Source of the DNA: Pirellula staleyi DSM 6068
GTDB taxonomy: Bacteria; Planctomycetota; Planctomycetia; Pirellulales; Pirellulaceae
Direction of reading: 5' to 3'
NCBI GenBank assembly: GCA_945900945.1
Contig: CAMDKL010000019.1
Span: 1 to 54,643 of the forward strand
Length of the DNA: 54,643 bases
Shown here: piece by piece, positions 13,137 through 44,386 of the stretch
How positions within the stretch are numbered: the stretch's first letter is position 1
Layout of the letters: each line of letters opens with the position of its first letter
The notes under the pieces: generated by a model
Database searches by the model: none
Seen by the model: only the letters and a program-made list of their open reading frames with translations
Told to the model about the DNA's origin: nothing
Position numbers and translations under genes: made by a program

Positions 13137-13255
13137 AATGGCACTCACTGTTTTTCGTGAACCGGTGGGCGCTAGCCCCGGGCCCGAATTCGCTGGCTAA
13201 TTCGTTTAAAACCAAGCCCGAGGTTAGCGCCAAAGGTTTTAAAGTGAGTGCCATT
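13137..13255 (+). repeat. Complete two-armed intergenic repeat with 13-bp terminal inverted repeats
   Basis: AATGGCACTCACT at 13137-13149 is matched perfectly by AGTGAGTGCCATT at 13243-13255. The left arm carries CGTGAACCGGTGGGCGCTAGCC (core 13168-13177). The right arm carries ACCAAGCCCGAGGTTAGCGCC. Both arms recur at 44.3 kb, and the left arm alone recurs at 2.9 and 24.8 kb. There is no coding capacity and no obvious target-site duplication. It fills the gap between fabI and the phosphoesterase gene. Confidence 0.8.
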
Positions 13256-20828: not shown

Positions 20829-20995
20829 GCTCTAGCTTGGAAACCAGAGTTCCGGAAGCTCTGCTTCGACGTCCTGCGGGCATTGGCAGGCCGTCAACTG
20901 GGCTCCGAGGACTGATTGTCGTGTGTCGGCCGAAACAGGGGCCGGGAAGCAGAGCTTCCAGAGTGCGCGTTCCCAAGCCGTAGCTTGGGAACGAG
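20829..20995. repeat. Composite inverted repeat with nested hairpins
   Basis: The right part contains GGAAGC/GCTTCC (20945-20950 with 20954-20959) and CGTTCCCAAGC/GCTTGGGAACG (20968-20978 with 20983-20993; 11-bp stem, 4-base loop). The left part (about 20829-20870) is a diverged reverse complement of it: AGCTTGG...CCGGAAGCTCTGCTTC. Together they make an imperfect inverted repeat with arms of roughly 45 bp around an 80-base centre. The 300-bp gap between the lactonase stop and the Ada-like start has no gene. Confidence 0.7.
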
Positions 20996-21012: not shown

Positions 21013-22146
21013 TCACGGAGAAGATTTCTCTGTTTCCATGAATCGGATGCAGACGGGGCTGTCAACTTTTACGCTAAACTCAGTCGGCGTTAATTCACCC
21101 GTCGATGGGTTGATCCGAAACACGATTACATTACCACCCGATTGATTAGCGACCAGCATGTACTGCCCAGTGGTCTCGATCGCGAAGTTGCGAGGTGTCT
21201 TGATGCCAGCGCTCTGATGGCCAACCGCTTTCAGTACACCCGTGGTCTGATCGATCGAAAAAATTGCGATCGAGTTATATGGGTCGCGATTCGAAACGTA
21301 CACAAATTTCCCTGAGGGATGCACGACCGTCTCAGCTGTACTGCCGCCCTTGCGAACGACATCGTTTGGCAACGTAGAAAGAACTTGTCTTTGCTTCAGT
21401 ATGCCTTTGTCAGCATCGTAATCGCAGGCCAGGATGGTCAAGTTCGACTCGCCATTAATATAGGCGCGCGTGCCATCGGGAGACCAAGCGAAGTGACGTG
21501 GGCCCGTTCCCTTGGGTGCGTCGAATGCATTGTGTGGCGTCAACGTTCCTTTGTTAGCATCAAATGAATAAACAATGACCTTGTCTAATCCGAGATCGCA
21601 ACAGAGGGCGAACTTATTGGCCTTATCCAGGTGGATGGAATGCCCATTCTTCTTTGTCCCCTGATGTTGCTGGAAGGAAGACAACGAGCTGAGCTTGCCG
21701 TCGGCATCGATCGGGATTGAAATGCAACTTCCGCCGCTATAGTTGGCGGCAAGCACATTTTTGCCAGCTGAATCCACGATCAGATGGCACGGTGCTCCGC
21801 CTTGCGATGGTTGAGAATTGAGAAAGGTCAGGCTCCCCGTCGTGCCGTCTATGGCAAAGGCGCTGATCATCGCGTCGGATTCGTTAACGGCGTAGAGAAA
21901 CCTTTTGTTGGGATGAAATGCCAAAAACGAAGGACTGCTGGTTTCTCCCGTCAGCGTGGCCGCCGAAAGAGAGCCGTCCTTGAGGTTCAGTTCGCATTGG
22001 TAGATGCCGTTGCTCCCCTTGCCTGTATAGGTGCCCAGATAAACGCGAAGTTTTTCTTGCGAGTACGCTTGATTGCAGGCAAAAGTAACCGTATTTGCAA
22101 ATACGATCATACAAATTCTCCAGAACAGGGGTCGTCGCCAGAACAT
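21013..22146 (-). CDS. Exported lactonase, 6-phosphogluconolactonase-type beta-propeller
   Basis: 377 aa protein of the seven-bladed Pgl (YbhE-type) lactonase family. Seen: VYLGTYTGKGSNGIYQCELN at the start of the propeller, SPSFLAFHPNKRFLYAVNE, APCHLIVDSAGKNVLAANYSGGS, GTGPRHFAWSPDG, TAETVVHPSGKFVYVSNRD and TPRNFAIETTGQYMLVANQ. A signal peptide (residues ~5-30) points to the periplasm, so the substrate is probably an unphosphorylated sugar lactone. A TTG at 22164 is in frame, but ATG at 22146 has GGAG nine bases upstream. It lies 100 bp downstream of the MFS gene on the same strand and fits the sugar-acid unit. Confidence 0.85.
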   Translation of the reverse strand: MFWRRPLFWRICMIVFANTVTFACNQAYSQEKLRVYLGTYTGKGSNGIYQCELNLKDGSLSAATLTGETSSPSFLAFHPNKRFLYAVNESDAMISAFAIDGTTGSLTFLNSQPSQGGAPCHLIVDSAGKNVLAANYSGGSCISIPIDADGKLSSLSSFQQHQGTKKNGHSIHLDKANKFALCCDLGLDKVIVYSFDANKGTLTPHNAFDAPKGTGPRHFAWSPDGTRAYINGESNLTILACDYDADKGILKQRQVLSTLPNDVVRKGGSTAETVVHPSGKFVYVSNRDPYNSIAIFSIDQTTGVLKAVGHQSAGIKTPRNFAIETTGQYMLVANQSGGNVIVFRINPSTGELTPTEFSVKVDSPVCIRFMETEKSSP

Positions 22147-22246
22147 AGATTTGAACTCCGTCAAAAAGGGTCATCAGGATAGTGTACGTAATATTGTACA
22201 AGTATTGACTGCACCAAACGAATGCGATGAGGGTTTTGATCCCTAA

Positions 22247-23515
22247 TCACTCAATACGACGATTGGCGTTGATTCCTAATGCAGCGAGTGCTGCGACTAA
22301 GTAGCCAAGAGAGAAAAGCCAAAACGCTTCGTGCCAGTCACCGTTCGTGTCCCATTGTTTAAGCACGATCGGCACAAGCAACGGCGTGGTTGCGGCCCCC
22401 AAGTTTCCCCACATGTTTCCCCAACCGAAGACCGCGGCCGTGTTCTTGCCGCCAACATCCTGCATGTAAGCCCAGATGGCTGGAACGCTCATATCGGTAA
22501 CGAAAGCCACAAGGGACGCTGCCGCAATAAACGCCCATGCCGATTCCAGTCGAAGGCACGATAGATAGGCCCCGATCGCTACGATGTAGCAGATGAACAT
22601 AGGCAACGATCGGCCCCAGCGGCGGCCAAGCTTTCGGGTTGCAAAATCGGTCAACTGACCGCCGCACAGCATCCCGACAATTCCAGACGCAAGGACAATC
22701 GTCGACATCCAACCACCGATAATGGGATCAACATGTTTGATGTCTTTCAAATAGGTTGGGAGCCACGTAACTAGAAACACCCAACCGATATTGACTCCGA
22801 ACTGCAAGGCGCACATCAACCACATGGTCCAGCTACAAACCAAAGGAAGTATCGGTGGAAACTCGGCGGGACCGGTTTGAGAGGACTCGGTTTCACCCAC
22901 AGCGATGAGGGCCCGTTCGGCTTCATCTGTGAATGGATGTTCTGCTGGAGTTTCCCTGAACACTCGCCAGAAATGAGCTGCGACAAAAAAGCCAGAGCAG
23001 CCGTAGAGTACAAGGACCCATCTCCAAGTTAAATAGTCGCTCAAAAGCCACGCTGTCAGCAGAGGGGCAATAGTACCTCCCAGGCGACCACCGAACGAAA
23101 CGATGCTGCTGGCCGTCCCTCGCCTGGGCAAAGGAACCCAGCGCTTGACGAGACTACCTGCTGTTGGATAACAACCCGCTTGAGCGATACCAAACAGCAA
23201 TCGGACCGCAATTAATATAAAAAATCCAGTGGCTAGCCCGGTTAGGATTGTACAGACGGACCAAATGAGGATGTACAACGGCAACATCCGTCGCGCACCG
23301 AATCGATCGGACAGCCAGCCCGCAGGCACTTGGCCAAGTGCATAGGCCAGGAAAAAAGCGGACATGATCCCGCCCGTTTGTTCCTTGGTGAGGCTGAGCG
23401 CGTTCTTGAATTCATCGAGCTTGACTATTTCTGCAATACAGTTGCGGTCAAGATAGAGTATTACGGCAGTTAAAGTGGTTGCGCCGATGATGTGGTAACG
23501 AACGTTGGTTGGCAC
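22247..23515 (-). CDS. MFS transporter of the anion:cation symporter family (sugar-acid uptake)
   Basis: 422 aa with about 12 hydrophobic helices. The helix 1 region YLDRNCIAEI, the loop 2-3 motif GWLSDRFGARRMLP and GIAQAGCYPTAGSLVKRWVP match ACS-family members such as glucarate, galactonate and hexuronate permeases. The central loop is charged (residues ~195-220). It starts four bases after the dehydratase gene stop, so it is almost certainly co-transcribed with it. The acid-sugar substrate is inferred from family and neighbours. Confidence 0.85.
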   Translation of the reverse strand: MPTNVRYHIIGATTLTAVILYLDRNCIAEIVKLDEFKNALSLTKEQTGGIMSAFFLAYALGQVPAGWLSDRFGARRMLPLYILIWSVCTILTGLATGFFILIAVRLLFGIAQAGCYPTAGSLVKRWVPLPRRGTASSIVSFGGRLGGTIAPLLTAWLLSDYLTWRWVLVLYGCSGFFVAAHFWRVFRETPAEHPFTDEAERALIAVGETESSQTGPAEFPPILPLVCSWTMWLMCALQFGVNIGWVFLVTWLPTYLKDIKHVDPIIGGWMSTIVLASGIVGMLCGGQLTDFATRKLGRRWGRSLPMFICYIVAIGAYLSCLRLESAWAFIAAASLVAFVTDMSVPAIWAYMQDVGGKNTAAVFGWGNMWGNLGAATTPLLVPIVLKQWDTNGDWHEAFWLFSLGYLVAALAALGINANRRIE

Positions 23516-23518
23516 GAA

Positions 23519-24748
23519 TTAACTCACTTGGCTGCGGCGAAATTGATTTTGGCCTGGATGGAATAGACTCGATAGGTACGACGTTCCCAGACCTGGGCCC
23601 GTGGGCGCAAGGAGAAAACCCTGTTCGATGATGGGCTGAGTGTCAATCAGCCGTTCGTAGAATGTTCGGATATGCGCGCGCACCGTTTCCTGCAAAACAA
23701 CGTTTGCCGATGCAACGGCGCAGTGCAGTCCCGCGAACAACGTCAATGGACCCGTACAGTCATGCATCGTTGCGGGTATGTTGTAGGCTTGAGCCAGATC
23801 AATAATCCGTCGAGTCTCGCTGATCCCGCCCGACCAAGTCGGATCAATCATAACATAGTCCACAGCGCCTGCCTTGAGCAACGCGAGGTAGCTGGAACGC
23901 CCTAATAGCATTTCGCTAGCTGCGATCGGCATTCCTGACTGGCGACGGAAATCGGCCAAGGTATCGACGTTGTCGACTCGTAACACATCTTCTAGCCAAA
24001 GTGGACGAATCTCGCGGAGGGCATCGGCCACTCGTAGCGCCGAGGGCAATTGGAAGAACGCATGCCCCTCAATCATGATTTCGATTGCGTTTCCAACTCG
24101 ATCCCGAATCTCACGCAACGGTTTCATGCCTGCTTCCACGTCGGCAGGAGATATGTACAGTCCGCCATTTTGATGCACGAATCGATCGAACGGCCAGACC
24201 TTCATGCCGGCAATCCCCTCTGCGACCAGTTCCGCGGCCAAATCTCCTGCCGCATGAAACGAAGACCAGTTGTCCTGGAGTGGCCCTGGTTTTCCTTGGT
24301 CCCCATAACCTGGCCACCCAGGATGCTTGGCGACTCGCTGGGTGGATTGCTGTAATGCTCCGTAGCCTGGGCCACCGCACGTATTGTAAATGCGAACTCT
24401 CGGTTGCACCGAACCCCCTAACAGTCTCCATACCGGTTGACCGCAACCTTGACCAAGGATATCCCACAGAGCTACATCGATGGCAGACAGCGCTCGCATC
24501 TCGGCTCCCGGGGCACCGAACGCGGTGCAGCGCTCATAGAGAAAGCGCCAGTGCGATTCGATATCTGTCGCTTCGGACCCCAACAGTCGTTCGGCCATCC
24601 AGTCATGGATCAAACCCTCGATAGCGTGCGGTGTGTAGTACGTTTCTCCACAGCCAATGAGGCCATCGTCCGTATGAACTCGAACCAGGATCAGGTTCGG
24701 CATGATCGCCGCAGGAATTGCAGTCTCGATTGCTGTGATGCGGGGCAT
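23519..24748 (-). CDS. Mandelate racemase/muconate lactonizing enzyme family protein, acid-sugar dehydratase-like
   Basis: 409 aa, enolase superfamily. N-terminal capping domain (residues ~1-115; RALSAIDVALWDILG at 85-99) then barrel. Lys183 in GMKVWPFDRF is placed like a catalytic base. Metal-ligand acids are Glu227 (IEGHA, with His229), Glu253 (WLEDVL) and Glu279 (ASEMLLGR). His329-Asp330 (MHDCTGP) is near the end of the barrel. An E-x-H in place of a bare D/E ligand, and the terminal His, recall galactonate/mannonate-type dehydratases, but specificity cannot be assigned. Start ATG at 24748. It sits between the mannonate-dehydratase-like gene and the MFS gene. Confidence 0.85.
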   Translation of the reverse strand: MPRITAIETAIPAAIMPNLILVRVHTDDGLIGCGETYYTPHAIEGLIHDWMAERLLGSEATDIESHWRFLYERCTAFGAPGAEMRALSAIDVALWDILGQGCGQPVWRLLGGSVQPRVRIYNTCGGPGYGALQQSTQRVAKHPGWPGYGDQGKPGPLQDNWSSFHAAGDLAAELVAEGIAGMKVWPFDRFVHQNGGLYISPADVEAGMKPLREIRDRVGNAIEIMIEGHAFFQLPSALRVADALREIRPLWLEDVLRVDNVDTLADFRRQSGMPIAASEMLLGRSSYLALLKAGAVDYVMIDPTWSGGISETRRIIDLAQAYNIPATMHDCTGPLTLFAGLHCAVASANVVLQETVRAHIRTFYERLIDTQPIIEQGFLLAPTGPGLGTSYLSSLFHPGQNQFRRSQVS

Positions 24749-24823
24749 GTTGTTTCTTTATTGTATATTGGTGATTTGTTATGGAGTAAGTTGGGGATGC
24801 GTGATAAGCGATATTGCTGCGCA

Positions 24824-24857
24824 ATTTAGGCCCGGGGCTAGCGCCCGCCGATTCACG
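24824..24857 (-). repeat. Short left-arm fragment of the two-armed intergenic repeat
   Basis: AATTTAGGCCCGGGGCTAGCGCCCGCCGATTCACG contains the core GGCTAGCGCC (24836-24845) and the flanking sequence found in the arms at 2.9, 13.2 and 44.3 kb. The GTGAGTGCCATT end is missing. It lies within the 112-bp gap of an otherwise tightly packed minus-strand gene run, where it may affect read-through. Confidence 0.65.
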
Positions 24858-24860
24858 TTG

Positions 24861-25808
24861 CTATGCGGTTCCATGGATCAGACCACGGATGTAACCGTAT
24901 GCAAAGAGTCGGCCAAGCATCGTATAGCCTGGTTCACCATCATCTTCTCCTTCGAGTTGTGGGACATGGTCGGGGCGAATCGGGCCGGAAAAACCGATCT
25001 CTCGCAATGCACGAATCGCAGCGGCCATGTCCGTCGGTCCATTGTCATGGAAGGTCTCGGTAAATGCCTCTGACGTTCCTCTTGCATCGCGAAAGTGGAC
25101 GTATTGTATATGATGTCCCAGTCGGCGAATGGTCTGGGGGATGTCTATTCCCATCGTGGCAAACGTTCCTTGGCAGAAACAAATGGCATTTCGCGGACTC
25201 TTTACCAAGTTGACCAATCGCTCCAAGTTCTCAATCGAGTTCATGATTCGGGCCTTGCCGAGAAACTCTCGCAGGGGAGGATCATCAGGATGCATCGCCA
25301 AAGTCACGCCGGACGCCTCGGCAACCGGAACCACTTCTCCCAAAAACCGTTCGAGATTGGTCCACAGGTCCGCGGCTCCAATCGGTGTCGATGCGATTTC
25401 CGCTTGCGAGTTCAATGAAATTGCACGCTGCACGTCGGCCAGATTAAAGGCGGTCACTTTCGCGCCGCCACGCTCGGGAGCATCCAGTTGCGTACGAACC
25501 CAATCGGTTCCCGCCATAAAGTTGTAGCACAAGAGCGGAATGCCAACGGTTCCCATATGCCGAATGATCTGTTTCATTGCGGCCAGTTCCTGGCCATCAT
25601 GGTCCGTCCCAACTTTGATCTTCTCGATCGGTAAGTATCCCTCCACAGCGAACACTTGCAGACCGAATCTCTCTGGGTGTCGTTTGGCCGCCGACAAATC
25701 CTCCAGTGTGGGGCCAGGATAACGGATCACAACACCCTCCACGCCACATTGCGAAGCGAGCCGCATGTTGGTCTGGGAGAGTGGTGTAAGTACAGACGCA
25801 AGTTTCAC
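24861..25808 (-). CDS. Mannonate dehydratase-like protein (UxuA family / xylose-isomerase-like barrel)
   Basis: 315 aa TIM-barrel protein. Motifs resemble mannonate dehydratase: LCYNFMAGTDWVRT near residue 95, LAMHPDDPP near 190, NAICFCQGTF, YVHFRDARGT, FHDNGPTDMA and RPDHVPQL near 285. The reaction would be D-mannonate to 2-keto-3-deoxygluconate, in the cytoplasm. It is about 80 aa shorter than E. coli UxuA, as in a number of bacterial relatives. The GTG start at 25808 overlaps the DUF1501 stop (GTGA), so translation is coupled to an exported-protein gene. Confidence 0.75.
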   Translation of the reverse strand: MKLASVLTPLSQTNMRLASQCGVEGVVIRYPGPTLEDLSAAKRHPERFGLQVFAVEGYLPIEKIKVGTDHDGQELAAMKQIIRHMGTVGIPLLCYNFMAGTDWVRTQLDAPERGGAKVTAFNLADVQRAISLNSQAEIASTPIGAADLWTNLERFLGEVVPVAEASGVTLAMHPDDPPLREFLGKARIMNSIENLERLVNLVKSPRNAICFCQGTFATMGIDIPQTIRRLGHHIQYVHFRDARGTSEAFTETFHDNGPTDMAAAIRALREIGFSGPIRPDHVPQLEGEDDGEPGYTMLGRLFAYGYIRGLIHGTA

Positions 25809-27190
25809 GCGATGATATCTCGCACGACGTTTCCATAGACATCGGTGAGTCGAAAATCTCGACCGGCATGCCGAAAGGTGAGTCGTTCGTGATCGAGACC
25901 GAGCAAATGCAGGATGGTGGCATGCAGATCGTGCACATGGACTTTGTTCGTTGCAGCCTTGAATCCAAACTCATCGGTCTCTCCGTAGGTCATACCACCT
26001 TTTACGCCTCCTCCGGCGAGCCACATCGTAAAACCGTGATGATTGTGATCGCGTCCATTTCCGTTCTCGGAAGTGGGCGTTCGGCCAAACTCACCTCCCC
26101 AAACGACCAATGTTTCCTCGAGCAGTCCTCGTTGTTTCAAATCACCCAATAACGCTGCAATCGGTTGGTCAATTTCTTTGCACAGTTTCTTTACCGATTC
26201 ATTGTGGTTCGAATGGGTGTCCCACGGCTGACCATCGCCGTAATACACTTGCACGAATCGAACACCGCGTTCTACAAGTCGACGTGCGAGCAAGCATCCG
26301 TTCGCGAAGTTACCTGTTCCATAAGTCTCGCGAGTCGATTTGGTTTCGAGTGCCAAATCAAACGCTTCGCTCCCTTGAAACTGCATCTTATACGCGGTTT
26401 CCATCGCGGCTATGCGAGCATCCAATGCAGAATCGTCAGGTCGCAATTCCCGATGGTTGACGTTCAACTGTTGCAATAGATCGAGTTGTCGTCGCTGAGA
26501 GATCGCGTCCCACTGTAAGTTCCGCAAGTGCGGAACCATTTTTTCAGGATCCATTTTAGAATGATTGATATACGTTCCTTGATAGGCAGATGGAAGAAAG
26601 GCGCTATTCCAAAGAATAGAAAACCGCACCGGTCGGCCTGGACAAAGCACAATGTAACCGGGCAGATTTTCGTTCTCCGTTCCTAATCCATATAGGAACC
26701 AGGCGCCCATACTGGGTCGCGTTGGAGTGATCGTTCCGTTATTCATCTGCAACAACGCAGGACCATGATTTGGATTGTCTGCATGCAGCGAATTGAGAAC
26801 ACACATGTCATCCACGTGTTGACTCAGATGCGGCAACAACTCACTGACAGGTAGTCCACTTTCACCATGGTTGCTAAAACGGAAAGGGGAGGCTAGCAAG
26901 CCTCCAGTCGGCCGCTCGGTCAGCAGGTCGGCCCCTGTTGGTTTCTGGCCTTCGTACTTGAGGAGAGCCGGCTTCGGATCGAATAAATCGGCACCGAACG
27001 GCCCCCCATTCATGAACAGATGTATGACTCGCTTGGCCTTGGGTGGGAAATGCGTTCCGGTGGCCGACAATGCGTCCGCCGCAGCAAGATCGCCATTGGT
27101 TGCCAACAGACTGGCGGCGCTTAGCATTCCCATACCGCCACCAAACTGTTGCAACAGATGCCGTCGGTTCAGTTGTCCTTCGAGTGTCAT
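25805..27190 (-). CDS. DUF1501 exported protein, partner of PSD1 gene
   Basis: 461 aa. LNRRHLLQQF followed by a Gly/Met/Ala-rich hydrophobic segment is a Tat signal. The DUF1501 (alkaline-phosphatase/sulfatase-like fold) signatures are KRVIHLFMNGGPFGADLFDPKPAL, LPGYIVLCPG, VYYGDGQPWDTHSNH, LVVWGGEFGRTP, GRDHNHHGFT and VHDLHATILHLLGLDH. The frame is open to 27394, but ATG at 27190, four bases after the upstream stop, is the natural start. Compared with the paralogue at 37.2 kb, the GGPSH segment reads GGPFG. The biochemical role of DUF1501 is not established; it is almost always paired with PSD1-type genes. Confidence 0.9.
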   Translation of the reverse strand: MTLEGQLNRRHLLQQFGGGMGMLSAASLLATNGDLAAADALSATGTHFPPKAKRVIHLFMNGGPFGADLFDPKPALLKYEGQKPTGADLLTERPTGGLLASPFRFSNHGESGLPVSELLPHLSQHVDDMCVLNSLHADNPNHGPALLQMNNGTITPTRPSMGAWFLYGLGTENENLPGYIVLCPGRPVRFSILWNSAFLPSAYQGTYINHSKMDPEKMVPHLRNLQWDAISQRRQLDLLQQLNVNHRELRPDDSALDARIAAMETAYKMQFQGSEAFDLALETKSTRETYGTGNFANGCLLARRLVERGVRFVQVYYGDGQPWDTHSNHNESVKKLCKEIDQPIAALLGDLKQRGLLEETLVVWGGEFGRTPTSENGNGRDHNHHGFTMWLAGGGVKGGMTYGETDEFGFKAATNKVHVHDLHATILHLLGLDHERLTFRHAGRDFRLTDVYGNVVRDIIA

Positions 27191-27194
27191 GGCG

Positions 27195-29639
27195 TCAATC
27201 CAGAAAGAGAATTTCATTCGAAGCCAGCAGCACATGAGTGTACTGCTTCCAGCGGTTCGCACGTTCCTCGCCAGCAGTGTCGGAAAGATACTCCAGGGCG
27301 AGTTTCTGCTCGACTGCGGTTGGTGAGCGAGAAGAAAGCAGCCAGTAGGCACGATTGATTTGTGCCGCTTCGTCGTCTGGGTGTTCTCGCCCAAGTCGGC
27401 TTAAAAGTGCTTGTGATTGCTCCGCGAGTAGGGGGCCATTAAGTGCATACAATCCTTGGAGTGCAGTGGTGGTCGAAAATCGTTGTGGGCTGTGCTGATT
27501 GGGATCGGGGAAGTCGTGGATTTGAAATGTTGTGGAGAGTTCCCGCCGATGAACCGTGCTGTAAAGCGTTCGTCGACGGTTCCCTGGTTCGTCCAGATCT
27601 CTCGACTGTCCGCCTGGAGCCAAATCGAGCACACCGCTGGCTGACAGCATCGTGTCTCGCCATGCTTCGAAGTCGTGCCGCCGCCGGTTCATGTGCGAGA
27701 GCCAGCGGTTACTTGGATCGAGGGACTTGGCTTGATCCGATCTACTTGTTGACTGTTGCCATGTCGCTGAGAAGAGAATCTCGCGATGTAGCCATTTGAT
27801 GGACCATCCGTTCGCGATGAAACGAGCCGACAGATCATCCAGTAATTCGGGATGGCTCGGTCGGCTCCCTTGGGCACCGAAGTTGCTTGGCGTGCTAACC
27901 AATCCCTGACCGAAATGCGTCAGCCATATTCGGTTTACGATGACTCGGGCTGCAAGCGGCGCAGCATCGGAGGTAATCGAATGAGCCAGTTCTAATCGAC
28001 CACTCCCAATCTCAAATAATCGCGGTTCGGGTGTGAGCACAGTGAGAAAGCGCCGGCGCACGATCTCACCCGGGCGATTCGGGTCACCACGAGAGAACAA
28101 TGGTAAATCTTGAGGGCCAGGCCGATACGTAAGCCTCGTTCCGTCTTGCGGGTTTGCTCCAGCCCTCTCGATATAAAGGGATTCTTCGGACAATGCGTTA
28201 GTCAGTTCCGCATCAAACATCGGTACCGCTTTGAGTTCCTTGATCTTGGTCGTCAACTGTTCGAGCTTTTCCAGCGGCGTCGGAGCGTTATCTTTGGTTG
28301 CCGTGTCGACTGGACCGGTATTCGTTTCGTCCGCCGTCTTCTGTTGCTGAGTTGCCGGCAGTTCCTTTGCTCTCCCTTTTTCCCTTTTTGCAATCTCCGT
28401 TTTTAATTTAGTCTGCTCAACTTCCAGCTTGGCGACTTCGGCTTTCGCCTCTCGAACAGGCTGATACTGCTCTTCAGAAATGAGCGGGCGACCGACTTGC
28501 CTGGAACTTGCGAAGACACCAGCCAGGGCGTGATAATCCTCGGCACTGATCGGATCGAACTTGTGATCATGACATCGTGCGCACGCAACCGTCAGCCCGA
28601 GGAATGTACTGGTTACGGCATCGACTCGTTCCTCCCATTCATCGGCCACAATCATCTTGATAATTTCGCATGGCAGTTGCAGTTCCTTCCAATAGGTCGG
28701 GCTCAGGCCGACGAAACCGAGTGCGGTCAGATCTTTTGGGCTCGAACCGGGCATGAGATCGACGGCCAATTGTCGGCAGACGAACTCGTCGTAGGGCATG
28801 TCACCGTTGAAAGCGTTTACGACCCAGTCGCGGTACAAGTAGGCTTGTCCATCCTGCAAAAGCCAACTCTCCGTCCGATCCGTATACCGAGCAAGATCGA
28901 GCCACGTCCTCGCCCACTTCTCACCGTACTGAGGCGATGCCATGAATCGCTCGACCAATTTCTCAAAGGCCATCGGCGAGTCATCCGTCACAAATGCTTC
29001 AACATCTTCCGGTAGTGGCGGAAGTCCAGTCAGATCAAAGCTTAAACGGCGAATCAGCGTCACCCGATCCGTCGGAGGCGCGGGATCCAATCCATCGCGC
29101 TCCATGCTCGAAAGTACGAAAACATCCATACGAGATTTGGGCCACTGGCCGTCTAGGACCTCGGGTAGTGGCTGTTGTCTGACCGGCTGAAAGGACCAGA
29201 ACCTTCGACCTTCATCGAAATTGATTTGACGTGACTTCTGCTCGGGTTCGACGAGTGATTTTGGAAAAGGTGCCCCGCGCTTAACCCACTCCGTCAACTC
29301 CTTAATTTCGGCGTCGGGCAGTTTACCTTTAGGAGGCATCTGAATGTCATTGTCGTACTGAATCGAATGGATTAGCAAGCTCGCGTCTGGTTGTCCGGCG
29401 ACCAGCGTTGGTCCACTGTCACCACCTTTTTGAACCGAAGCCGCAGTATCAAGACGCAATCCACCTCGCAAAACTTTTGCGTCGTTGGAATGGCAGGAAT
29501 AGCAATGCTGGGCGAGAATCGGACGAATCTTGCGCTCGAAATACTGAATGCTTTCGTCACTAGGCGAGCGTTCCTCCGCGAGCGAAATTTGGGAACACGA
29601 GAGAATGGCGATCAGTTGTGGAAGCAGATAGTGAATCAT
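27195..29639 (-). CDS. PSD1-type planctomycete cytochrome, DUF1549/DUF1553 protein
   Basis: 814 aa from ATG 29639 (an in-frame start at 29708 adds 23 residues). A signal peptide is followed by a c-type cytochrome domain with CYSCH (residues 46-50) and a distal methionine region IQMPPKGKLP. Next come DUF1549 (DRVTLIRRLSFDLTGLPP, YGEKWARTWLDLARYTD, VACARCHDHKFDPIS with a second CxxCH) and DUF1553 (PEPRLFEIGSGRLELAHSI, RVIVNRIWLTHFGQGLV, RRTLYSTVHR). A charged coiled coil (residues ~395-460) separates the two. Periplasmic; probably redox. It heads the minus-strand sugar-acid unit. Confidence 0.92.
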   Translation of the reverse strand: MIHYLLPQLIAILSCSQISLAEERSPSDESIQYFERKIRPILAQHCYSCHSNDAKVLRGGLRLDTAASVQKGGDSGPTLVAGQPDASLLIHSIQYDNDIQMPPKGKLPDAEIKELTEWVKRGAPFPKSLVEPEQKSRQINFDEGRRFWSFQPVRQQPLPEVLDGQWPKSRMDVFVLSSMERDGLDPAPPTDRVTLIRRLSFDLTGLPPLPEDVEAFVTDDSPMAFEKLVERFMASPQYGEKWARTWLDLARYTDRTESWLLQDGQAYLYRDWVVNAFNGDMPYDEFVCRQLAVDLMPGSSPKDLTALGFVGLSPTYWKELQLPCEIIKMIVADEWEERVDAVTSTFLGLTVACARCHDHKFDPISAEDYHALAGVFASSRQVGRPLISEEQYQPVREAKAEVAKLEVEQTKLKTEIAKREKGRAKELPATQQQKTADETNTGPVDTATKDNAPTPLEKLEQLTTKIKELKAVPMFDAELTNALSEESLYIERAGANPQDGTRLTYRPGPQDLPLFSRGDPNRPGEIVRRRFLTVLTPEPRLFEIGSGRLELAHSITSDAAPLAARVIVNRIWLTHFGQGLVSTPSNFGAQGSRPSHPELLDDLSARFIANGWSIKWLHREILFSATWQQSTSRSDQAKSLDPSNRWLSHMNRRRHDFEAWRDTMLSASGVLDLAPGGQSRDLDEPGNRRRTLYSTVHRRELSTTFQIHDFPDPNQHSPQRFSTTTALQGLYALNGPLLAEQSQALLSRLGREHPDDEAAQINRAYWLLSSRSPTAVEQKLALEYLSDTAGEERANRWKQYTHVLLASNEILFLD

Positions 29640-29768: not shown

Positions 29769-30854
29769 CTAGCCAAATTTCAATGCGGGATCGAGTGCTC
29801 GTTGAATCGCTTGTCCGAACGGGCTTGGTTCACTCGAACGAATTATTGTGCTAGACTGACCAAGAAATGTTTGAGCCATGCCAAGTTTGGCTTGCAAATC
29901 TGCGGTCCACTCGGTTGCGATCCACGCGACGTTTCCGCCAACACTGTACCGTCGATTTCTCTGGGAATCGGTCAAAAAATTTTCGACCTTTGGGATCGCC
30001 CTCGATGTTATCGGCAGCTTGAGCAATGTTTCTGCATTGCACGCCCAATCGAAGTTGGACGCCGCTCGCCAAAATATCTCGTCCTCATGATCTTGCAGGA
30101 TACGGGACGCAGGTGCGATTTTTTGCAGACGTGACAATCGGTTCGAAATGGCAGTCGCTATTCCTCCAATGCGAATTGCGAGATCATAGCAACGCTCCTC
30201 TTGCTCGACGGGAAAGAGATCGAGTGCCTCAATGTCCATCGGTGACGACGCGAGTTGGTGCATGCATGCCAAAGCTGGATCCAGTTCGGAAAACCGGCTG
30301 ATGACGGTAGCATACGATTCAGGGAGTGGAAACACTTTGAAGGTTAACTCGTAAATCAAACCGAGCGCGCCTTGACTACCAACCATCAGCTTGGGGTAAT
30401 CAAAGCCCGCTGCGTTCTTGACAACCTGCCCTCCGCCTCGAATACAGTTCCCACGTCCATCAATAAATCGGACCCCCAACAAAAAGTCTCTGATTCCGCC
30501 GAAACGGAATCGGCCTGGCCCGGATGCATTGGCCGCAACGGTCCCGCCAATAGTGGCTCCCCTGTTAACCAACAAGGGATCAAACGGGAGATACTGCCCT
30601 TGTTTTGCCAAAATCGCAACGACGTCGGAGATCTGCGTCCCGCTTAGCATCGTCACAACAAACTCTTGTGGATCGTAAGAAACGATTCCTTGGAGCGAAT
30701 GGGTCGAGAGGATCGTGGCTCCCTCGACCAATGAATGGAAGCCGCTTTTTGTCCGCGATCCGCAAACATGAACCTTGGTCGATTGACGTACGATCTCCTG
30801 CATGTCAGGAATAGGATCGTAGGTTGTAGTTAGGGACATACCGAGACTACTCAC
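29769..30854 (-). CDS. glcE: FAD-binding oxidoreductase, glycolate oxidase subunit GlcE-like
   Basis: 361 aa. PCMH-type FAD domain: [57 protein letters not shown] and [36 protein letters not shown] are diagnostic for GlcE. It acts with GlcD (and normally GlcF) to oxidise glycolate to glyoxylate at the membrane. A GTG at 30854 overlaps the glcD stop by eight bases; an ATG at 30839 is an alternative. No glcF follows: downstream is 129 bp and then the PSD1 gene. Confidence 0.85.
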
Positions 30855-32349
30855 GCGAGATCACTCCGGCTTTCTCCAATGGGTGCAGACCGGAGGTAGT
30901 CAACGCGGGCGCTTCGCCGTCCATCAGCATTTTACCTGGGTTGGCAATGTGCCTTGGATCGATTTCGTTGCGTATTTGAAACATCGATTCCATATCGTTC
31001 GGTTGAAACATCTTAGGTAAATAGTTGCGTTTTTCCATTCCCACGCCATGCTCACCGGTAATCGAGCCTCCGAAACGAATGCAAAGTTCGATGATTTCGG
31101 ACGCCAGCAACTCCGCGCGGTGCAATGCCCCCGGCTCCTTGCCATCGTACAGGATGAGCGGATGCAAATTGCCATCGCCGGCGTGAAATACATTGGCTAC
31201 TCGAATCCCGTGAACCTCGCTCAAGCGGTGGATCTCCTCAAGGGCTTCACCAAGTCGGCCGCGAGGAACAACCCCGTCTTGAACGATGAAATCGGGGCTT
31301 AATCTCCCAACGGCCGAGAACGCGCTCTTGCGCCCCTTCCAGATTTGCTGACGTTCAAAAGTATCTTTAGCTTCTTGGACCAAGTAAGGATTGGAGGCAT
31401 GGATCAGCGGCAGCAATCGATGAAACTCCGCTTCGACCTGCGATGCTTCTCCCTCCAACTCAACGATCAGCAAACCAGCAGCATCGAGTGGGTAACCAGG
31501 ATGGACTGCCGCCTCGGCTGCTTGAATGCTCAAGTTGTCCATGATCTCCATCGCCCCGGGGAGTAGACCAGAAGCGATGATTCGGCTAACAGCATCTCCA
31601 GCAGCCTTGAGGGATCGATAAGCGCACATCACGGTTCGATACACTTCTGGCTTAGGAATCAATCTCAGGGTGATCTCTAAAGCGATCCCAAACAAACCTT
31701 CGGAGCCGACAAACATGCCGACATAATCTGGCTGGATGCTTTCGAGGCTTTGGCCACCAAGCTGATCGACACTGCCATCTGGCAAAACGACCTTTAGCCC
31801 AAGCACATGATTGCTGGTCATTCCATATTTAAGACAATGGGCTCCACCGCTATTGAAAGCGACGTTCCCGCCGATGGTACAGACCGTTTGACTCGATGGA
31901 TCAGGTGCATACAACAGGCCGTACGGTTCGGCTGCTTTGGTCACGTTTAGATTGATAACGCCTGGCTCCACAACCGCCAATCGTTCGACCGGATCCAAGC
32001 GAAGGATACGATTCATCCGGTTCATACTAATGACAATGCCATTCTTCACGGGAAGCGAACCACCAGAAAGGCTTGTCCCGTTACCTCTCGCAACGAAAGG
32101 CACGTTGGACTCGAAACAACATCGAACGGTTCGAATGACTTCTTCAGCGGTTTCGGGCAAGACGACAGCAATAGGCTTTTCGCGAAACGCGGTCAGCCCA
32201 TCGCTTTCATAGGGAACCAAGCCTGCGTCGTGGGTCAATAGCCGTGGGCTTGGATAAATTTGAGCGAGCTTCGAAAGGAATTGCGATACCATTTGGCTAA
32301 CGCCCTGCGTCTGATTGTTTTGCAGCGGGTTGATAGGTGACCCTCGCAT
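30847..32349 (-). CDS. glcD: FAD-linked oxidase, glycolate oxidase subunit GlcD-like
   Basis: About 500 aa. FAD domain ([71 protein letters not shown]) and C-terminal FAD-oxidase domain ([29 protein letters not shown]). It oxidises glycolate or a related 2-hydroxyacid. The frame is open to 32487, inside the upstream aminotransferase gene; ATG at 32349 (24 bases after that gene's stop) or at 32292 are the realistic starts, the latter giving the commoner N-terminus. Second gene of the aminotransferase-glcD-glcE unit. Confidence 0.9.
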
Positions 32350-32372
32350 TTTGTTTCTATGTCCACAAGCTT

Positions 32373-33554
32373 CTACTGATACACATCGTTGGCTGCCGCG
32401 ATGCCCGCGCCCGCTTGCATTGGAAATTTCTGAGCCGACAAACAGTTTTCTAGAGCCGCTAAAAAATTTAAAACATTGCGAGGGCATGACGTTTCACCCA
32501 TCAAACCAATACGCCACGTTTTGCCTTTCATGGGTCCCAAACCAGCCCCGATTTCGATTCCAAACTCGTTTAGCAATCGGCTACGAACGGCAGCGTCGTC
32601 GACTCCCTGTGGAATAAAGACCGCGTTGAGCATTGGCAATCGGTTTTCTTCTGCGACGGCGAATTGGATACCAAGAGCAGTTAAGCCAGCTCGTAACGCA
32701 TAGTGATTCTTGAGGTGCCTAGCAAACCGGACGTCTAATCCCTCCTCTAGGACAATTCGGAGAGCTTCGTGTAGCCCATAGTTCATGTTGATGGGGGCTG
32801 TGTGGTGATAGACTCGCGATGATTCGGCCCAATAGTTTCGAACCATGCTGAGATCGAGGTACCACGACTGGACCTTGGTCTTTCTAGCATCCAACCTTTC
32901 CAAGGCACGTGGCCCAAACGTCAACGGCGAAAGTCCTGGCGGGCAACTTAGGCATTTCTGAGTTCCACTGTACGCAGCATCAACACCCCAATCGTCGATT
33001 CGAACAGGTCGACCGCCGAGACTCGTCACGCAATCCATGATCAAAACTGCACCCGCATCGTGGACGATTTTCGCGATACCCTCCATCGGCTGACACGCAC
33101 CTGTGGATGTTTCGGCGTGAACAATGCCCACGACTTGTGGCTTGTGTGTTTTAACTGCCTTTTCGATTTCTTCCAGCGTAAAGACTTCTCCAAACGGTCG
33201 TTCCATGGCATGAACGACAGCACCCGCTCGTTCCGCCACATCTTTCATGCGACCGCCGAAGACTCCGTTTACGCCCACAACCATTCGATCGCCTGGTGAG
33301 ACTAAATTAACTACGCACGCTTCCATCCCTGCTGAGCCGGTGCCGCTCACTGCGATCGTCAATGGATTCGTCGTTTGAAACACGACACGAAGCATCGCTT
33401 GGACTTCGTTCATAATCTTAAGGAAATAGGGGTCCAAATGCCCAACAGTCGGCTGGGCCAACGCGGCCAATACACGGGTATGAGTATCGCTGGGCCCCGG
33501 CCCCATCAAAATTCGACGAGGTGCGTTGGCTACGGGTGGAATCGGGGCGGACAT
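32373..33554 (-). CDS. Class V aminotransferase, alanine-glyoxylate/serine-pyruvate type
   Basis: 393 aa PLP enzyme. [84 protein letters not shown] (Lys200 as Schiff-base lysine) and [16 protein letters not shown] match the AGXT/serine-glyoxylate aminotransferase group. It would convert glyoxylate to glycine using alanine or serine. Placement directly before glcD-glcE supports a glyoxylate role: the oxidase makes what the aminotransferase consumes. Cytoplasmic; no signal peptide. Confidence 0.88.
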
Positions 33555-33999
33555 TAAATAGTTCTCCAGTTGAATTTAGTAATCGCGACCGAATGGCCAT
33601 TCGCGCGAACTCGCTGCTGTGGGAATGCCATAGCACCGATTTGACCAAGATCGATTGTAGTGCCCAACCCGGTATTGCGCCAGATACGCTTGCCTTGTTC
33701 CTCGCAAATTATTTTCTGAGTGTGGGAACGAGGGTCTAAAACAAGTAGTATTCACCGAGAAGTTTCAAACCAATTTCAGCTCCGCTCGGGGTTTGAACGG
33801 TAATGATTGAAGTGCCAATTCGAAAAATTTTCCGCGATTTTTGTTCATCGCACTCCCATGTTTGCTGCATAATAAGCACCCAGGTAGACTATCAGTATTA
33901 CCATAGCTTTGTGTTGATGAAATGGTCCATTACCCGCCGCAAATTGCAAGTCAAGCAATTCCCCCGATCGAATCGTTAGAATCGAACAAGTGCTGGATT
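33555..33999. other. Intergenic region between divergent units; no supported gene
   Basis: 445 bp between the aminotransferase start and the PSD1 start. Short ORFs here have no ribosome binding site or recognisable motif. It must contain promoters for both directions, but I see no confident -35/-10 or -24/-12 pair. The PSD1 frame is open from 33922, yet its conserved signal peptide begins at 34000. Confidence 0.5.
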
Positions 34000-36900
34000 A
34001 TGTCCCAGACGATATCGTGGTCAACTTTTTTACTACTTGTTGCGTCATGCTTCACGCTGGGGACCAGAAGTCTTTACGCAGAGGATGGCGAAGCATTCTT
34101 CGAATCTAGGATTCGACCACTACTGCTTAAACATTGCCATGAATGCCATGGCGAGAAAAAACAGGAAGGTGGACTGCGGCTGGATTCTCGAGCCGCATGG
34201 CAAGCGGGCGGGGAAAACGGATTGGTTATCCAAATCGGTGCCCCCGAATCGAGTCGGTTGATCGAAGCGGTGCGTTACGCAAACACCGATCTGCAAATGC
34301 CGCCGACCAAGAAACTCAGCGACAGCGAGTTATCCAACCTAGAGGCGTGGATCAAGATGGGAGCGCCAGATCCTCGAGAGGTTAAGACACCAAACGTAAG
34401 CTTGGAGGGTAGGCCGCTTTGGTCGCTGCAACCTATTGCAATCGTACATCCACCGCCGCTCCCAGAGAATAATTGGAGCCAGCAACCGATAGATTGCTTC
34501 ATTTTGGAAAAGCAGCGAGCTGCGGGCCTCGAGCCCAGCAATCTAGCCGACCGGCGAACTTTGATTCGCCGCGCGACCTTGGACCTGACAGGCTTGCCAC
34601 CATCTCCAGCAGAGGTTGAATCCTTTGTTCATGATACGTCCACGAACGCATATTCCCGATTGATTGAGCGTTTGTTGGCTTCACCTCAATACGGTGAACA
34701 GTGGGCAAGGCATTGGCTCGACGTCGCTCGCTACTCCGACACGAAAGGATACGTCTACGCACGTGAAGAGAATCGCTGGGTACATGCATCTGCGTATCGA
34801 GATTGGGTGGTTCGGTCGTTCAATGAGGATTTAGCATACGATCGTTTTGTACGTTTGCAGATCGCTGCTGATGAGATCGTGCCTGCCGTTTCCCCCGATC
34901 TCGCAGCCATGGGTTTTCTTACACTTGGACGACGATTTCTGGGTGTAACACACGACATCATTGATGACCGTATCGATGTAGTTACGCGTGGAATGTTGGG
35001 ACTGTCTGTTGCATGCGCTCGATGTCATGACCACAAGTACGATCCAATCCCGACTCGCGACTATTACTCGCTTTACGGGGTTTTTCAAAGCAGCGCCGAG
35101 TCGCTGGTCCGTTGCGGTCAGTCGAACGACACTGCATTTGATGAAGAACTGGGGAAGCGGGAAACCAAACGTCGAGAAACCATGTCCAAACGCCGGGAAG
35201 AGCAGTCCATGCGTGTGCGCCCCAAAATAGAACAATACCTGCTTGCCCAACTCGAACTGGAAAAATATCCAGAGGAGGTGTTCAACCAGGTTGTTGCACC
35301 TGAAGATATCAACCCATTTGTTGTTCGCAAATGGCAATCTTTCTTGTCAAAGGACAGACAGTCTCCAGACCCGATCTTTGCTAAATGGCACGCCATTGTC
35401 ATGGAAAAAAGGGTTGTCATGGAAAAAAAGGTTGCTATCGAAAAAGAACAACGCCTACTTCAGAACCAAGTGGCATCTGAATATGCTGTCGCGTTCGCAA
35501 ATATCGAAAAGCGGTGGCGAGAACTTATCGCTGCTAATCCTGAAACAACTGCCTTTCCGGATACGAATGATGAGCGACTGCGGCGAGTGCTCTATGGTAT
35601 CGAATCGCCATGTCATGTGCCGGATGAACATATTACCAATATCGAAGCCTATTTCCCCTCCAATGTCATTGTTGAACTCTGGAAATTACAGGGGGAGGTC
35701 GATCGGTGGTTAATGGAAAGCGCGAGCTCGCCGACCTATGCCACGATTCTTGTCGACCGTCCGATTACCTCTAGCCCACGAGTATTCCTTCGCGGAAATC
35801 CGATGACCAAAGGTTCCGAAGTACCACGCCACTTTTTAACGGCCCTGGGCGGTGAAGAGGCTAAGCCATTCGGACGAGGAAGTGGGAGATTGGAACTTGC
35901 TAATGCGATCGCAAGTCCGCTGAATCCGTTGACCGCGCGGGTCATGATCAATCGAATATGGATGCACCATTTCGGTCGTGGATTCGTGGACACACCGAGC
36001 GATTTTGGCAATCGGGCTGAGATCCCCAGCCACCCCGAGCTGTTCGACTGGCTTGTGAAGCGTTTTATCGATTCTGGCTGGAGCATCAAATCGTTGCATC
36101 GCACGATCATGTTGTCTAGCACGTATCAGCAGGGAAACGATTCAGAATTGCAGCAAATCGATCCAGAGAATAGGTTGCTTGCTCGTATGATGGCACGCCG
36201 TCTCAGCTTCGAGCAGGCTCGCGACGCATGGCTCACTACTTCCGGCGAGTTGGATCTACGAGTCGGCGGCAAATCAAAACCATTGTTCGACACGAAGAAC
36301 ACTCGTCGCACGCTTTATGCAATTGTCGATCGAGAAAACGTGCCTCCTGTATTACGCATGTTTGATTTCGCCAACCCTGACCTTTCTATCGCCAAACGAA
36401 CTGAAACCTCAGTGCCGCAGCAGGCGTTGTTCGTCATGAATCATCCATTCATTGCAAATCGAGCGAAACAACTGACCGCGACATTTGGGGAGAGTGACCA
36501 AGTAGAACGAGTTGAGTGGTTGTATGCATCGCTTTATCAGCGTCGGCCAACCGGCCACGAATTACAGCTTGCCATCGATTTTATCAATTTCGAAGACGCA
36601 TCGTTAAAGATTGTACGATCACCAAGCCAATGGACCTACGGCTACGGAGAGTTTGATAGCGAGACGGGACGGGTTGCGACATTCACTCCGCTGCCGCACT
36701 TTACCGGAAAGGCTTGGCAAGGAAGCGATAGATACCCGGATGCGAAGTTAGGCTGGCTGCAACTCTCCCCCATTGGAGGCCATCCTGGCAACAATCTAAA
36801 ACATGCAATTGTCCGTCGATGGACAGCGACGCTCAATGGAAACTATGCAATTCATTCAAAAATATCACACGAACCCGAGATGGGGGATGGCATTCGTGCT

Positions 36901-37224
36901 TTCGTCAGTCATGGCACGAGAGGACTATTACGATCTGCAACGCTGCATCATTCGGCAGATCAGATCGATGTTAACTCGATCGCAATGATGAAAGGTGATA
37001 CGCTCGATTTCATTGTGGATATTCGCGATGGATTGAACAGCGATCAGTTCCTATGGTCACCCAAAATATCGCTTGCAGATTCGACAGGCACAGGTAGCGA
37101 TACGGTGAACCAAGTTTCGGATGCGGAAACAGATTTTGCGCGCGATAGTAATAGTCACTTGGATCGCTGGCAGCAGCTTGCGCAAGTGTTGATGCTTGCG
37201 AATGAATTTATGTTTGTAGATTGA
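34000..37224 (+). CDS. PSD1-type planctomycete cytochrome, DUF1549/DUF1553 protein with extra C-terminal domain
   Basis: 1074 aa. Signal peptide (~1-27), cytochrome domain with CHECH (residues 46-50) and LQMPPTKKLS, DUF1549 (ADRRTLIRRATLDLTGLPP, YGEQWARHWLDVARYSD, VACARCHDHKYDPIP) and DUF1553 (GSGRLELANAI, RVMINRIWMHHFGRGFVDTP, RRTLYAIVDREN). A coiled coil (~400-520) contains a local tandem duplication. Near the C-terminus an inserted ~170-residue segment (WTYGYGEFDSETGRV..., LGWLQLSPIGGHPGN) of likely beta-sandwich type precedes the closing LAQVLMLANEFMFVD. About 260 aa longer than the paralogue at 27 kb, mostly because of these two regions. The stop overlaps the DUF1501 start (TTGA). Confidence 0.92.
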   Translation: MSQTISWSTFLLLVASCFTLGTRSLYAEDGEAFFESRIRPLLLKHCHECHGEKKQEGGLRLDSRAAWQAGGENGLVIQIGAPESSRLIEAVRYANTDLQMPPTKKLSDSELSNLEAWIKMGAPDPREVKTPNVSLEGRPLWSLQPIAIVHPPPLPENNWSQQPIDCFILEKQRAAGLEPSNLADRRTLIRRATLDLTGLPPSPAEVESFVHDTSTNAYSRLIERLLASPQYGEQWARHWLDVARYSDTKGYVYAREENRWVHASAYRDWVVRSFNEDLAYDRFVRLQIAADEIVPAVSPDLAAMGFLTLGRRFLGVTHDIIDDRIDVVTRGMLGLSVACARCHDHKYDPIPTRDYYSLYGVFQSSAESLVRCGQSNDTAFDEELGKRETKRRETMSKRREEQSMRVRPKIEQYLLAQLELEKYPEEVFNQVVAPEDINPFVVRKWQSFLSKDRQSPDPIFAKWHAIVMEKRVVMEKKVAIEKEQRLLQNQVASEYAVAFANIEKRWRELIAANPETTAFPDTNDERLRRVLYGIESPCHVPDEHITNIEAYFPSNVIVELWKLQGEVDRWLMESASSPTYATILVDRPITSSPRVFLRGNPMTKGSEVPRHFLTALGGEEAKPFGRGSGRLELANAIASPLNPLTARVMINRIWMHHFGRGFVDTPSDFGNRAEIPSHPELFDWLVKRFIDSGWSIKSLHRTIMLSSTYQQGNDSELQQIDPENRLLARMMARRLSFEQARDAWLTTSGELDLRVGGKSKPLFDTKNTRRTLYAIVDRENVPPVLRMFDFANPDLSIAKRTETSVPQQALFVMNHPFIANRAKQLTATFGESDQVERVEWLYASLYQRRPTGHELQLAIDFINFEDASLKIVRSPSQWTYGYGEFDSETGRVATFTPLPHFTGKAWQGSDRYPDAKLGWLQLSPIGGHPGNNLKHAIVRRWTATLNGNYAIHSKISHEPEMGDGIRAFVSHGTRGLLRSATLHHSADQIDVNSIAMMKGDTLDFIVDIRDGLNSDQFLWSPKISLADSTGTGSDTVNQVSDAETDFARDSNSHLDRWQQLAQVLMLANEFMFVD

Positions 37225-44254: not shown

Positions 44255-44386
44255 GGCGCTAGCCAAATGGCAATCACTTTGCGATTTGGTGAACCGGCGG
44301 GCGCTAGCCTGGGGCCTAAATTTGCTGGCGAATTCGCCTAATACGAAGCCCGAGGACAACGACAATTTTTTAAAGTGAGTGCCATT
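44255..44386 (+). repeat. Complete two-armed intergenic repeat, second copy
   Basis: AATGGCAATCACTTT (44266-44280) is inverted at AAAGTGAGTGCCATT (44372-44386) with one mismatch. The left arm includes GTGAACCGGCGGGCGCTAGCC (core 44300-44309), and the outer flank holds another core at 44255-44264. The right arm shares ACGAAGCCCGAGG and TTTTAAAGTGAGTGCC with the 13.2-kb copy. It lies upstream of the methyltransferase gene and 250 bp before the efflux remnant. The rest of 44137-44636 shows no gene I can support. Confidence 0.8.

Follow-up and report, generated by a model that had tools for sequence, protein, structure and literature searches.

A Possible Composite Gene Run Placing an Exported PSD1-DUF1501 Pair beside Acid-Sugar Dehydratase-Like Genes in a Planctomycete

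Introduction

Genes carrying PSCyt and PSD domains are abundant in freshwater Verrucomicrobia, where they stand beside recurring partner families; a role in carbohydrate metabolism has been suggested for the PSCyt genes from carbohydrate-binding module (CBM) domains and from sulfatase genes nearby (He et al. 2017, PMC5615132). In R. baltica, each of the two domains was reported in 2009 to occur 41 times, and a redox function was suggested (PMC2754498); the available part of a study on SAR202 discusses expanded enolase-superfamily paralogues and not the PSD1-DUF1501 pair (PMC6946804). PSD1-DUF1501 pairs are numerous in planctomycetes and no assigned reaction was found for them in the literature searched; a search of titles and abstract openings likewise returned no paper linking DUF1501 to UxuA or to the MR/MLE enolase superfamily. 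The present analysis concerns one such pair, PSD1a-DUF1501a, and the acid-sugar dehydratase-like genes that follow it in the draft genome (6.47 Mb) of the planctomycete Pirellula staleyi DSM 6068 (GCA_945900945.1). They lie on its contig 19, a stretch of 54,643 bp that is called here the window.

The gene run containing this pair is tentatively read as a composite of separately inherited modules, in which an exported pair has been recruited repeatedly to acid-sugar dehydratase genes. Four modules are distinguished: an aminotransferase-GlcD-GlcE block, which is the leading part of a glc operon that now has its GlcF-like gene on another contig; the PSD1a-DUF1501a pair, kept together in relatives while its neighbours change; a UxuA-MR/MLE-MFS block, closest to that of a verrucomicrobial bin among the best 80 of 586 stretches; and a lone lactonase. 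The interest shifts from the single run to a clade of DUF1501 proteins whose genes repeatedly adjoin MR/MLE and UxuA.

Organization of the Run

Six genes are present on the - strand in the order PSD1a, DUF1501a, UxuA-like, MR-MLE, MFS transporter and lactonase. PSD1a (27195..29639; ATG at 29639, TGA at 27195) is separated by 4 bp from the ATG of DUF1501a at 27190 (25805..27190), which shares a GTGA in a 4-bp overlap with the UxuA-like gene (24861..25808); the MR-MLE gene (23519..24748) follows after 112 bp and the MFS gene (22247..23515) after another 3 bp, and the lactonase (21013..22146) has its ATG at 22146, about 100 bp past the MFS end. The families, strand and order given for these six genes by the initial annotation are confirmed by the open reading frames (ORFs) and by Pfam and NCBIfam scans. 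The same annotation placed PSD1 at the head of the run, and this is ruled out by three co-directional genes standing before it: the run begins at 33554, about 3.9 kb upstream, where a class-V aminotransferase gene opens it and GlcD-like and GlcE-like genes follow, the last ending 60 bp before the PSD1a ORF and 129 bp before its ATG.

GC content shows no break along the run; third-position GC (GC3) is 0.52-0.55 from the aminotransferase to DUF1501a and 0.57-0.59 from UxuA to the lactonase, a weak difference. A promoter and terminator scan of the run gave counts at or below those of shuffled sequence, and in the - strand gaps from PSD1a to the lactonase no terminator-like site was found, the scan counts being no higher than in shuffles.

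Linkage of DUF1501 to Dehydratase Genes

The recurrence of DUF1501 beside dehydratase genes was evaluated in 32 relatives' loci, drawn from 36 MR-MLE rows that include the window's own, with the rows of G110 and G307 and the second G120 copy left out. MR-MLE comes directly after a same-strand DUF1501 gene in seven of these loci, belonging to four of 15 genera (counted by hand); one locus, L074, shows no upstream ORF. A same-strand DUF1501 gene is expected directly upstream of a random gene in about 1% of cases, as estimated from the own genome at 1.2 kb per gene, and at assumed chance rates of 1-3% the adjacency counted by genus has p values of 1e-5 to 8e-4, in a test that is rough because some genera hold several loci. 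An eighth case, in the second G120 copy, is visible in coordinates only. The reverse order is found in L068, where a PSD1-DUF1501 pair stands directly after MR-MLE; a PSD1 gene similarly placed in L071 was dropped, being a 63-aa match in a 109-aa ORF.

In a FastTree phylogeny of 140 DUF1501 proteins, those of L338, L339, L341, L342 and L069 form a clade with local support of 1.0, and all five genes are located 5-72 bp before MR-MLE. A larger clade of 48 members (support 0.915, midpoint root) joins these five to DUF1501a of the window and to the proteins of L088 and L100 with their relatives; in L088 and L100 the DUF1501 gene stands directly before UxuA. The adjacency also arose outside this clade, since L052, L079, L085 and L336 carry other DUF1501 types. 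The searches that led to L079, L088, L100, L069 and L052 started from UxuA or MR-MLE, and the 40 DUF1501a-type loci described below are the only ones picked from the DUF1501 side. The linkage is, in our reading, real but facultative recruitment: in several genera, relatives of DUF1501a are again the immediate neighbours of MR-MLE or UxuA, and the run as a whole is not conserved.

The PSD1a-DUF1501a Pair

PSD1a shows a PSCyt1-PSCyt2(DUF1549)-PSD1(DUF1553) architecture, with two CxxCH motifs and a start that by eye resembles a signal peptide; its Pfam scores exceed the cut-offs for PSCyt1 (60.1 vs 22 bits), DUF1549 (232.2 vs 29.8) and DUF1553 (247.3 vs 28.5). Its AlphaFold2 model (pLDDT 79.0, pTM 0.76) has no PDB match at E <= 0.001, the best being at E 1.1, and a new fold is not thereby proven. 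DUF1501a scores 489.8 bits against PF07394 (cut-off 27), has a twin-arginine start by eye and is predicted to share the fold of the alkaline phosphatase superfamily. The profile alignment with this superfamily spans 125 columns in the C-terminal half and places E368 beside the D339-N340 motif of sulfatases; the N-terminal catalytic region is unaligned in it, and the nucleophile and the first metal site were not located. His143 as a substitute nucleophile, an idea that came from comparison with what we take to be the CxPSR motif of sulfatases, is unsupported because the alignment stops short of that region. The initial annotation's statement that DUF1501 has no established function is narrowed by the predicted fold.

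Of 197 genomes, the own included, 149 have a DUF1501a match at E <= 1e-150. Forty DUF1501a-type neighbourhoods were compared, 39 from other genomes and one from an own paralogue, each of at most 20 kb and together 648 kb; PSD1a lies directly upstream on the same strand in 38 of them. Within four genes of the DUF1501a type are found MR/MLE in three loci, MFS in four and a lactonase in one, on the opposite strand. L223, L228 and L231 have MR/MLE and MFS genes downstream of the DUF1501a orthologue; in L231 a DHDPS-family protein lies between the two, with like-placed ORFs in L223 and L228, and the MR/MLE protein of L231 just passes the galactonate dehydratase cut-off (311.6 vs 311).

The own genome holds 127 DUF1501 matches, some of them partial, and a PSD1-DUF1501 pair near any given gene is therefore unremarkable. 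Sixty-eight of these, all genes of at least 300 aa, were examined, and 56 of them have PSD1 directly upstream; where the next gene is visible (51 pairs), it is on the opposite strand in 30 and on the same strand within 50 bp in only five. Two of these five tightly packed pairs sit in the window, and such packing is unusual. Because the pair is kept together with changing neighbours, it is regarded as an independent unit. In the genomes searched, its closest relative is L194 (G175), with identities of 77% for PSD1a and 90% for DUF1501a; G175 belongs to a different family within the order, a placement that suggests transfer of PSD1a-DUF1501a.

The Dehydratase and Transporter Module

The UxuA-like protein, a member of the mannonate dehydratase family of 315 aa (Pfam UxuA, PF03786, 242.5 bits), exceeds the NCBIfam subfamily cut-off PRK03906 (205.6 vs 191) and stays below the equivalog TIGR00695 (149.6 vs 199.55), for which reason it is classed only as UxuA-like. 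Residues H173, C212, H238 and D280 are invariant in eight aligned sequences and align with residues of 3ban that we take to be metal ligands. The dehydratase-like protein of the enolase superfamily (Pfam MR_MLE_N/C) has galactonate, gluconate and mannonate dehydratases as best NCBIfam relatives and reaches no cut-off among them (D-galactonate and D-mannonate dehydratase equivalogs, 188.5 vs 311 and 150.4 vs 550), so it is classed only as MR/MLE superfamily; K183, H229, E253, E279 and H329 are kept in 8/8 aligned sequences. A dipeptide epimerase function is not favoured, since E279 and no lysine follows the sixth strand, on what we assume to be the mechanism of those enzymes. The transporter (MFS_1) is nearest to the D-galactonate anion:cation symporter (ACS) subfamily, with 211 bits against the TIGR00893 cut-off of 395.

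A scan of named contigs, limited to the best 80 of 586 confirmed stretches, yielded L079, from a Verrucomicrobiia bin, in which UxuA (73% identity), MR-MLE (81%) and MFS (77%) are contiguous and a PSD1-DUF1501 pair of another type heads the same-strand run, separated from them by two genes; the MR-MLE identity to G067 is 72%. Orthologues of the UxuA-like protein (E <= 1e-80) occur in 37/241 genomes of the family and those of MR-MLE (E <= 1e-90) in 35/241, own included; without the own genome, 20 are shared (36 and 34 of 240, p 5e-11), and by genus 11 are shared (16 and 16 of 68, p 8e-6). Counting by genus is the only correction applied here for phylogeny.

The neighbourhoods of UxuA were compared in 61 loci, excluding the duplicates L095, L096 and L099, the more distant L103-L142 and L144-L157 (40-49% identity) and L053-L055 (28-35%); an upstream ORF is lacking in two of them. 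The same-strand adjacent genes include MFS in nine, an Nramp-like transporter in five and DUF1501 in four, and within four genes are found MR-MLE in seven and MlrC in 12; neither glc genes nor a lactonase lie within four genes of UxuA in any of the 61. The initial annotation is supported insofar as the UxuA-like, MR-MLE and MFS proteins resemble acid-sugar dehydratases and an importer and their genes recur together; the lactonase has almost no recurrent neighbour among the loci compared. An Nramp-like transporter is placed directly or closely after the UxuA-like gene in L084, L087, L091, L100, L301 and L302, and the three proteins scanned (L087, L100, L301) are all above the NF037982 cut-off. 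In genus g3 (L312, L048, L307-L311, L321, L322) the UxuA-like gene is followed by a 220-aa ORF, MlrC and a ~300-aa ORF, and after these in most by a convergent DUF1501; in L312 the 220-aa ORF is RraA-like and the ~300-aa ORF AstE/AspA-like.

The Split glc Operon and the Lactonase

The class-V aminotransferase that opens the co-directional run (32373..33554, - strand; Pfam Aminotran_5) has BhcA as best NCBIfam match, at 227 bits against a cut-off of 650. The GlcD-like subunit of a flavin adenine dinucleotide (FAD) oxidase (30847..32487, - strand; FAD_binding_4, FAD-oxidase_C) is delimited as an ORF whose true start is probably further in, and the GlcE-like subunit (29769..30854, - strand; NCBIfam GlcE best) has no GlcF-like gene after it. 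A GlcF-like gene of the own genome is located on contig 8 (G000:C8:17155-18417). As the equivalog cut-offs are reached neither by GlcD (464.1 vs 567.9) nor by GlcE (195.8 vs 284) nor by GlcF (323.3 vs 333), these genes are classed only as glc-like. GlcE matches at E <= 1e-50 occur in 5/60 genomes, the own included, and in all four relatives (G017, G024, G057, G059) a GlcF-like ORF comes after GlcE; those of L190 and L191 have GlcF as best NCBIfam match, at 329 and 324 just below the cut-off. In G017 the aminotransferase (91% identity to the window gene, partial), GlcD (89%), GlcE (63%) and GlcF-like genes are contiguous, and the contig-8 gene is 78% identical to its G017 counterpart. Since PSD1a follows GlcE and the GlcF-like gene is on contig 8, the block from PSD1a to the lactonase abuts a broken glc operon. 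The contig-8 gene lies two genes away from a PSD1-type gene. PSD1 as a replacement of GlcF as electron acceptor of GlcDE was considered, because it occupies the place of the GlcF-like gene of the four relatives, and was rejected as a lead, a GlcF-like gene existing elsewhere in the genome and PSD1a looking exported.

The last gene of the six encodes a Pgl-type beta-propeller lactonase on the - strand, with a signal-peptide-like start by eye (Pfam Lactonase PF10282, 341.6 bits), which scores 155.9 against the 6-phosphogluconolactonase PRK11028 cut-off of 370. The place assigned to it in the original scheme finds no counterpart in the 61 UxuA loci, and the single case among the 40 DUF1501a loci is on the opposite strand.

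Possible Function and Competing Explanations

According to the favoured composite reading, the MFS protein would import an aldonic or uronic-type acid, from which the UxuA-like and MR-MLE enzymes may beta-eliminate water to give a 2-keto-3-deoxy acid, the two dehydratases possibly serving different stereoisomers or linked acids. More speculatively, the exported pair might make or free such an acid outside the inner membrane, with DUF1501 acting through a predicted metal-dependent hydrolase or transferase fold and PSD1 perhaps passing electrons via its two putative c-hemes. Members of the DUF1501a clade would have been recruited to dehydratase genes of this kind on several occasions, and the reaction of the pair itself is not tied to the acid-sugar pathway alone. 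A stronger form, in which one DUF1501 clade and its PSD1 cytochrome constitute an exported enzyme pair dedicated to producing or unmasking the acid sugars, or hydroxy acids akin to them, on which MR/MLE and UxuA dehydratases act, is rather doubtful; if true, it would represent a new periplasmic entry step combining an alkaline-phosphatase-type fold with a di-heme cytochrome that has no PDB fold match.

Several observations weigh against the favoured reading. Among the seven MR-MLE cases, the DUF1501 of L347 is partial, with a gap of 719 bp, and L336 carries another DUF1501 type; counted by origin, the adjacency falls to about 3/15 genera (p 0.0004-0.009). DUF1501 is directly before UxuA in only 4/61 loci (the upstream ORF is visible in 59), two of the four being other types, with a weak p of 0.003 at a 1% and 0.11 at a 3% chance rate. 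Most of the 48-member clade is unlinked, because 39 of its members are DUF1501a-type loci chosen as nearest relatives. UxuA is absent within four genes from all 40 of these loci, and indeed from the whole 648 kb; their MR/MLE matches have low identity (27-28%), a fourth, in L232, being further off and on the other strand. Most pairs examined in the own genome have no tight same-strand gene after them, and no 2-keto-3-deoxygluconate (KDG) kinase or aldolase is present within the run. The Foldseek TM-scores of DUF1501a are only about 0.3-0.4. Finally, the transporters beside MR-MLE vary (POT, SSF, MFS), and the one after MR-MLE in L339 exceeds the cut-off of oligopeptide:H+ symporters (251 vs 130); a peptide symporter adjoining MR-MLE in one relative group calls for caution on the substrate.

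It is quite possible that the arrangement is mere juxtaposition, a self-contained pair with an unrelated job having landed by recombination at the glcE/glcF break beside an acid-sugar module. The abundance of DUF1501 in the genome, by which chance neighbours arise, the predominance of opposite-strand genes after its pairs, the lack of UxuA in the DUF1501a-type stretches, the splitting of the glc operon exactly at the junction with PSD1a and a dispersed repeat inside the run are all in line with it. It is opposed by the MR-MLE/DUF1501 adjacency, five of whose seven cases fall in one clade near the window copy, and by L079, where in another phylum a PSD1-DUF1501 pair again stands ahead of UxuA-MR/MLE-MFS.

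An unlikely alternative is that the dehydratase-like enzymes act on compounds other than free sugar acids, such as amide- or peptide-linked hydroxy acids, and that the pair aids their release. Besides the L339 symporter, it is consistent with a Pfam PTR2 protein in L342, ORFs in L338 and L341 whose N-terminal sequence resembles those transporters, an amino-acid permease in L231, the MlrC/M81 proteins of the UxuA loci (nine of the 12 from one genus), the AstE/AspA- and RraA-like neighbours in L312 and a creatininase in L088; the UxuA metal site, the MR-MLE residues and the nearest NCBIfam relatives of the window MR-MLE fit acid-sugar dehydratases instead. IclR regulators near MR-MLE or UxuA in L341, L092 and L093 are compatible with sugar and non-sugar acids alike.

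The full scheme of the initial annotation, one operon in which oxidation of a sugar by the pair yields a lactone that is opened by the exported lactonase, imported through the MFS protein as the acid and processed by two dehydratases, agrees with gene content, spacing and the terminator scan and is very improbable given the unlinked lactonase, the non-conserved run and a 112-bp gap that holds a repeat. What survives of that interpretation is the dehydratase/importer module and the recurrent DUF1501 adjacency; the PSD1 head, the conservation of the whole run and the role of the lactonase do not.

Repeats and Flanking Genes

A genome-wide repeat search located a copy of a dispersed repeat at 24834..24850 (- strand), in the gap between UxuA and MR-MLE. 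The repeat, GGCGGGCGCTAGCCCC, is matched 112 times in the genome when up to one mismatch is allowed, compared with 15 times for its reversed control; its core, GG(C/T)GGGCGCTAGCCCC, lies within a longer conserved stretch and is intergenic, and further copies in the window are at 2905-2921, 13163-13179 and 44295-44311. An inverted repeat, CGTTCCCAAGCT...GCTTGGGAACG, is present at 20968-20993, just past the lactonase, and a CTCGTTCCCA stretch is found also upstream of the aminotransferase.

Divergent from the run is a second pair, PSD1b-DUF1501b, followed by an FtsX-domain protein (33922..38624, + strand). Downstream of the lactonase, on the same strand, 19867-20712 encodes an Ada-like protein, in which an AraC-type regulator and a methylguanine-DNA methyltransferase domain are fused. 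The protein encoded at 18522-19736 has a single CxxCH motif and matches squalene cyclases weakly; a relation of its gene to the cytochrome/squalene-cyclase-like gene before UxuA in L079 was dropped, the similarity being 32% over 66 aa only.

Comparison with Known Systems

The neighbourhood in the window is a composite and would be misleading if used alone. A clade found repeatedly directly before MR/MLE reduces the search from many paralogues to a handful of operons for which the class of substrate can be guessed, and thereby the function of the pair becomes testable. The PSCyt/PSD genes of freshwater Verrucomicrobia are alike in having recurring partner genes, and the available part of that report states neither an MR/MLE or UxuA link nor a fold for the partner (He et al. 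2017, PMC5615132).

Relative to the alkaline phosphatase superfamily (PafA, NPP, sulfatases), DUF1501a is distant, with 13% identity to 5tj3. The UxuA-like protein aligns in its core motifs with mannonate dehydratase UxuA (3ban, 1tz9) and is shorter, 315 aa vs 386 and 367. The window MR-MLE matches the MR-subgroup acid-sugar dehydratases (galactonate, ManD; 2pod, 3dip, 4dxk) over its full length, with 325 bits to 2pod, and, although it stays below every NCBIfam equivalog cut-off, it keeps their K, H, E, E and H positions.

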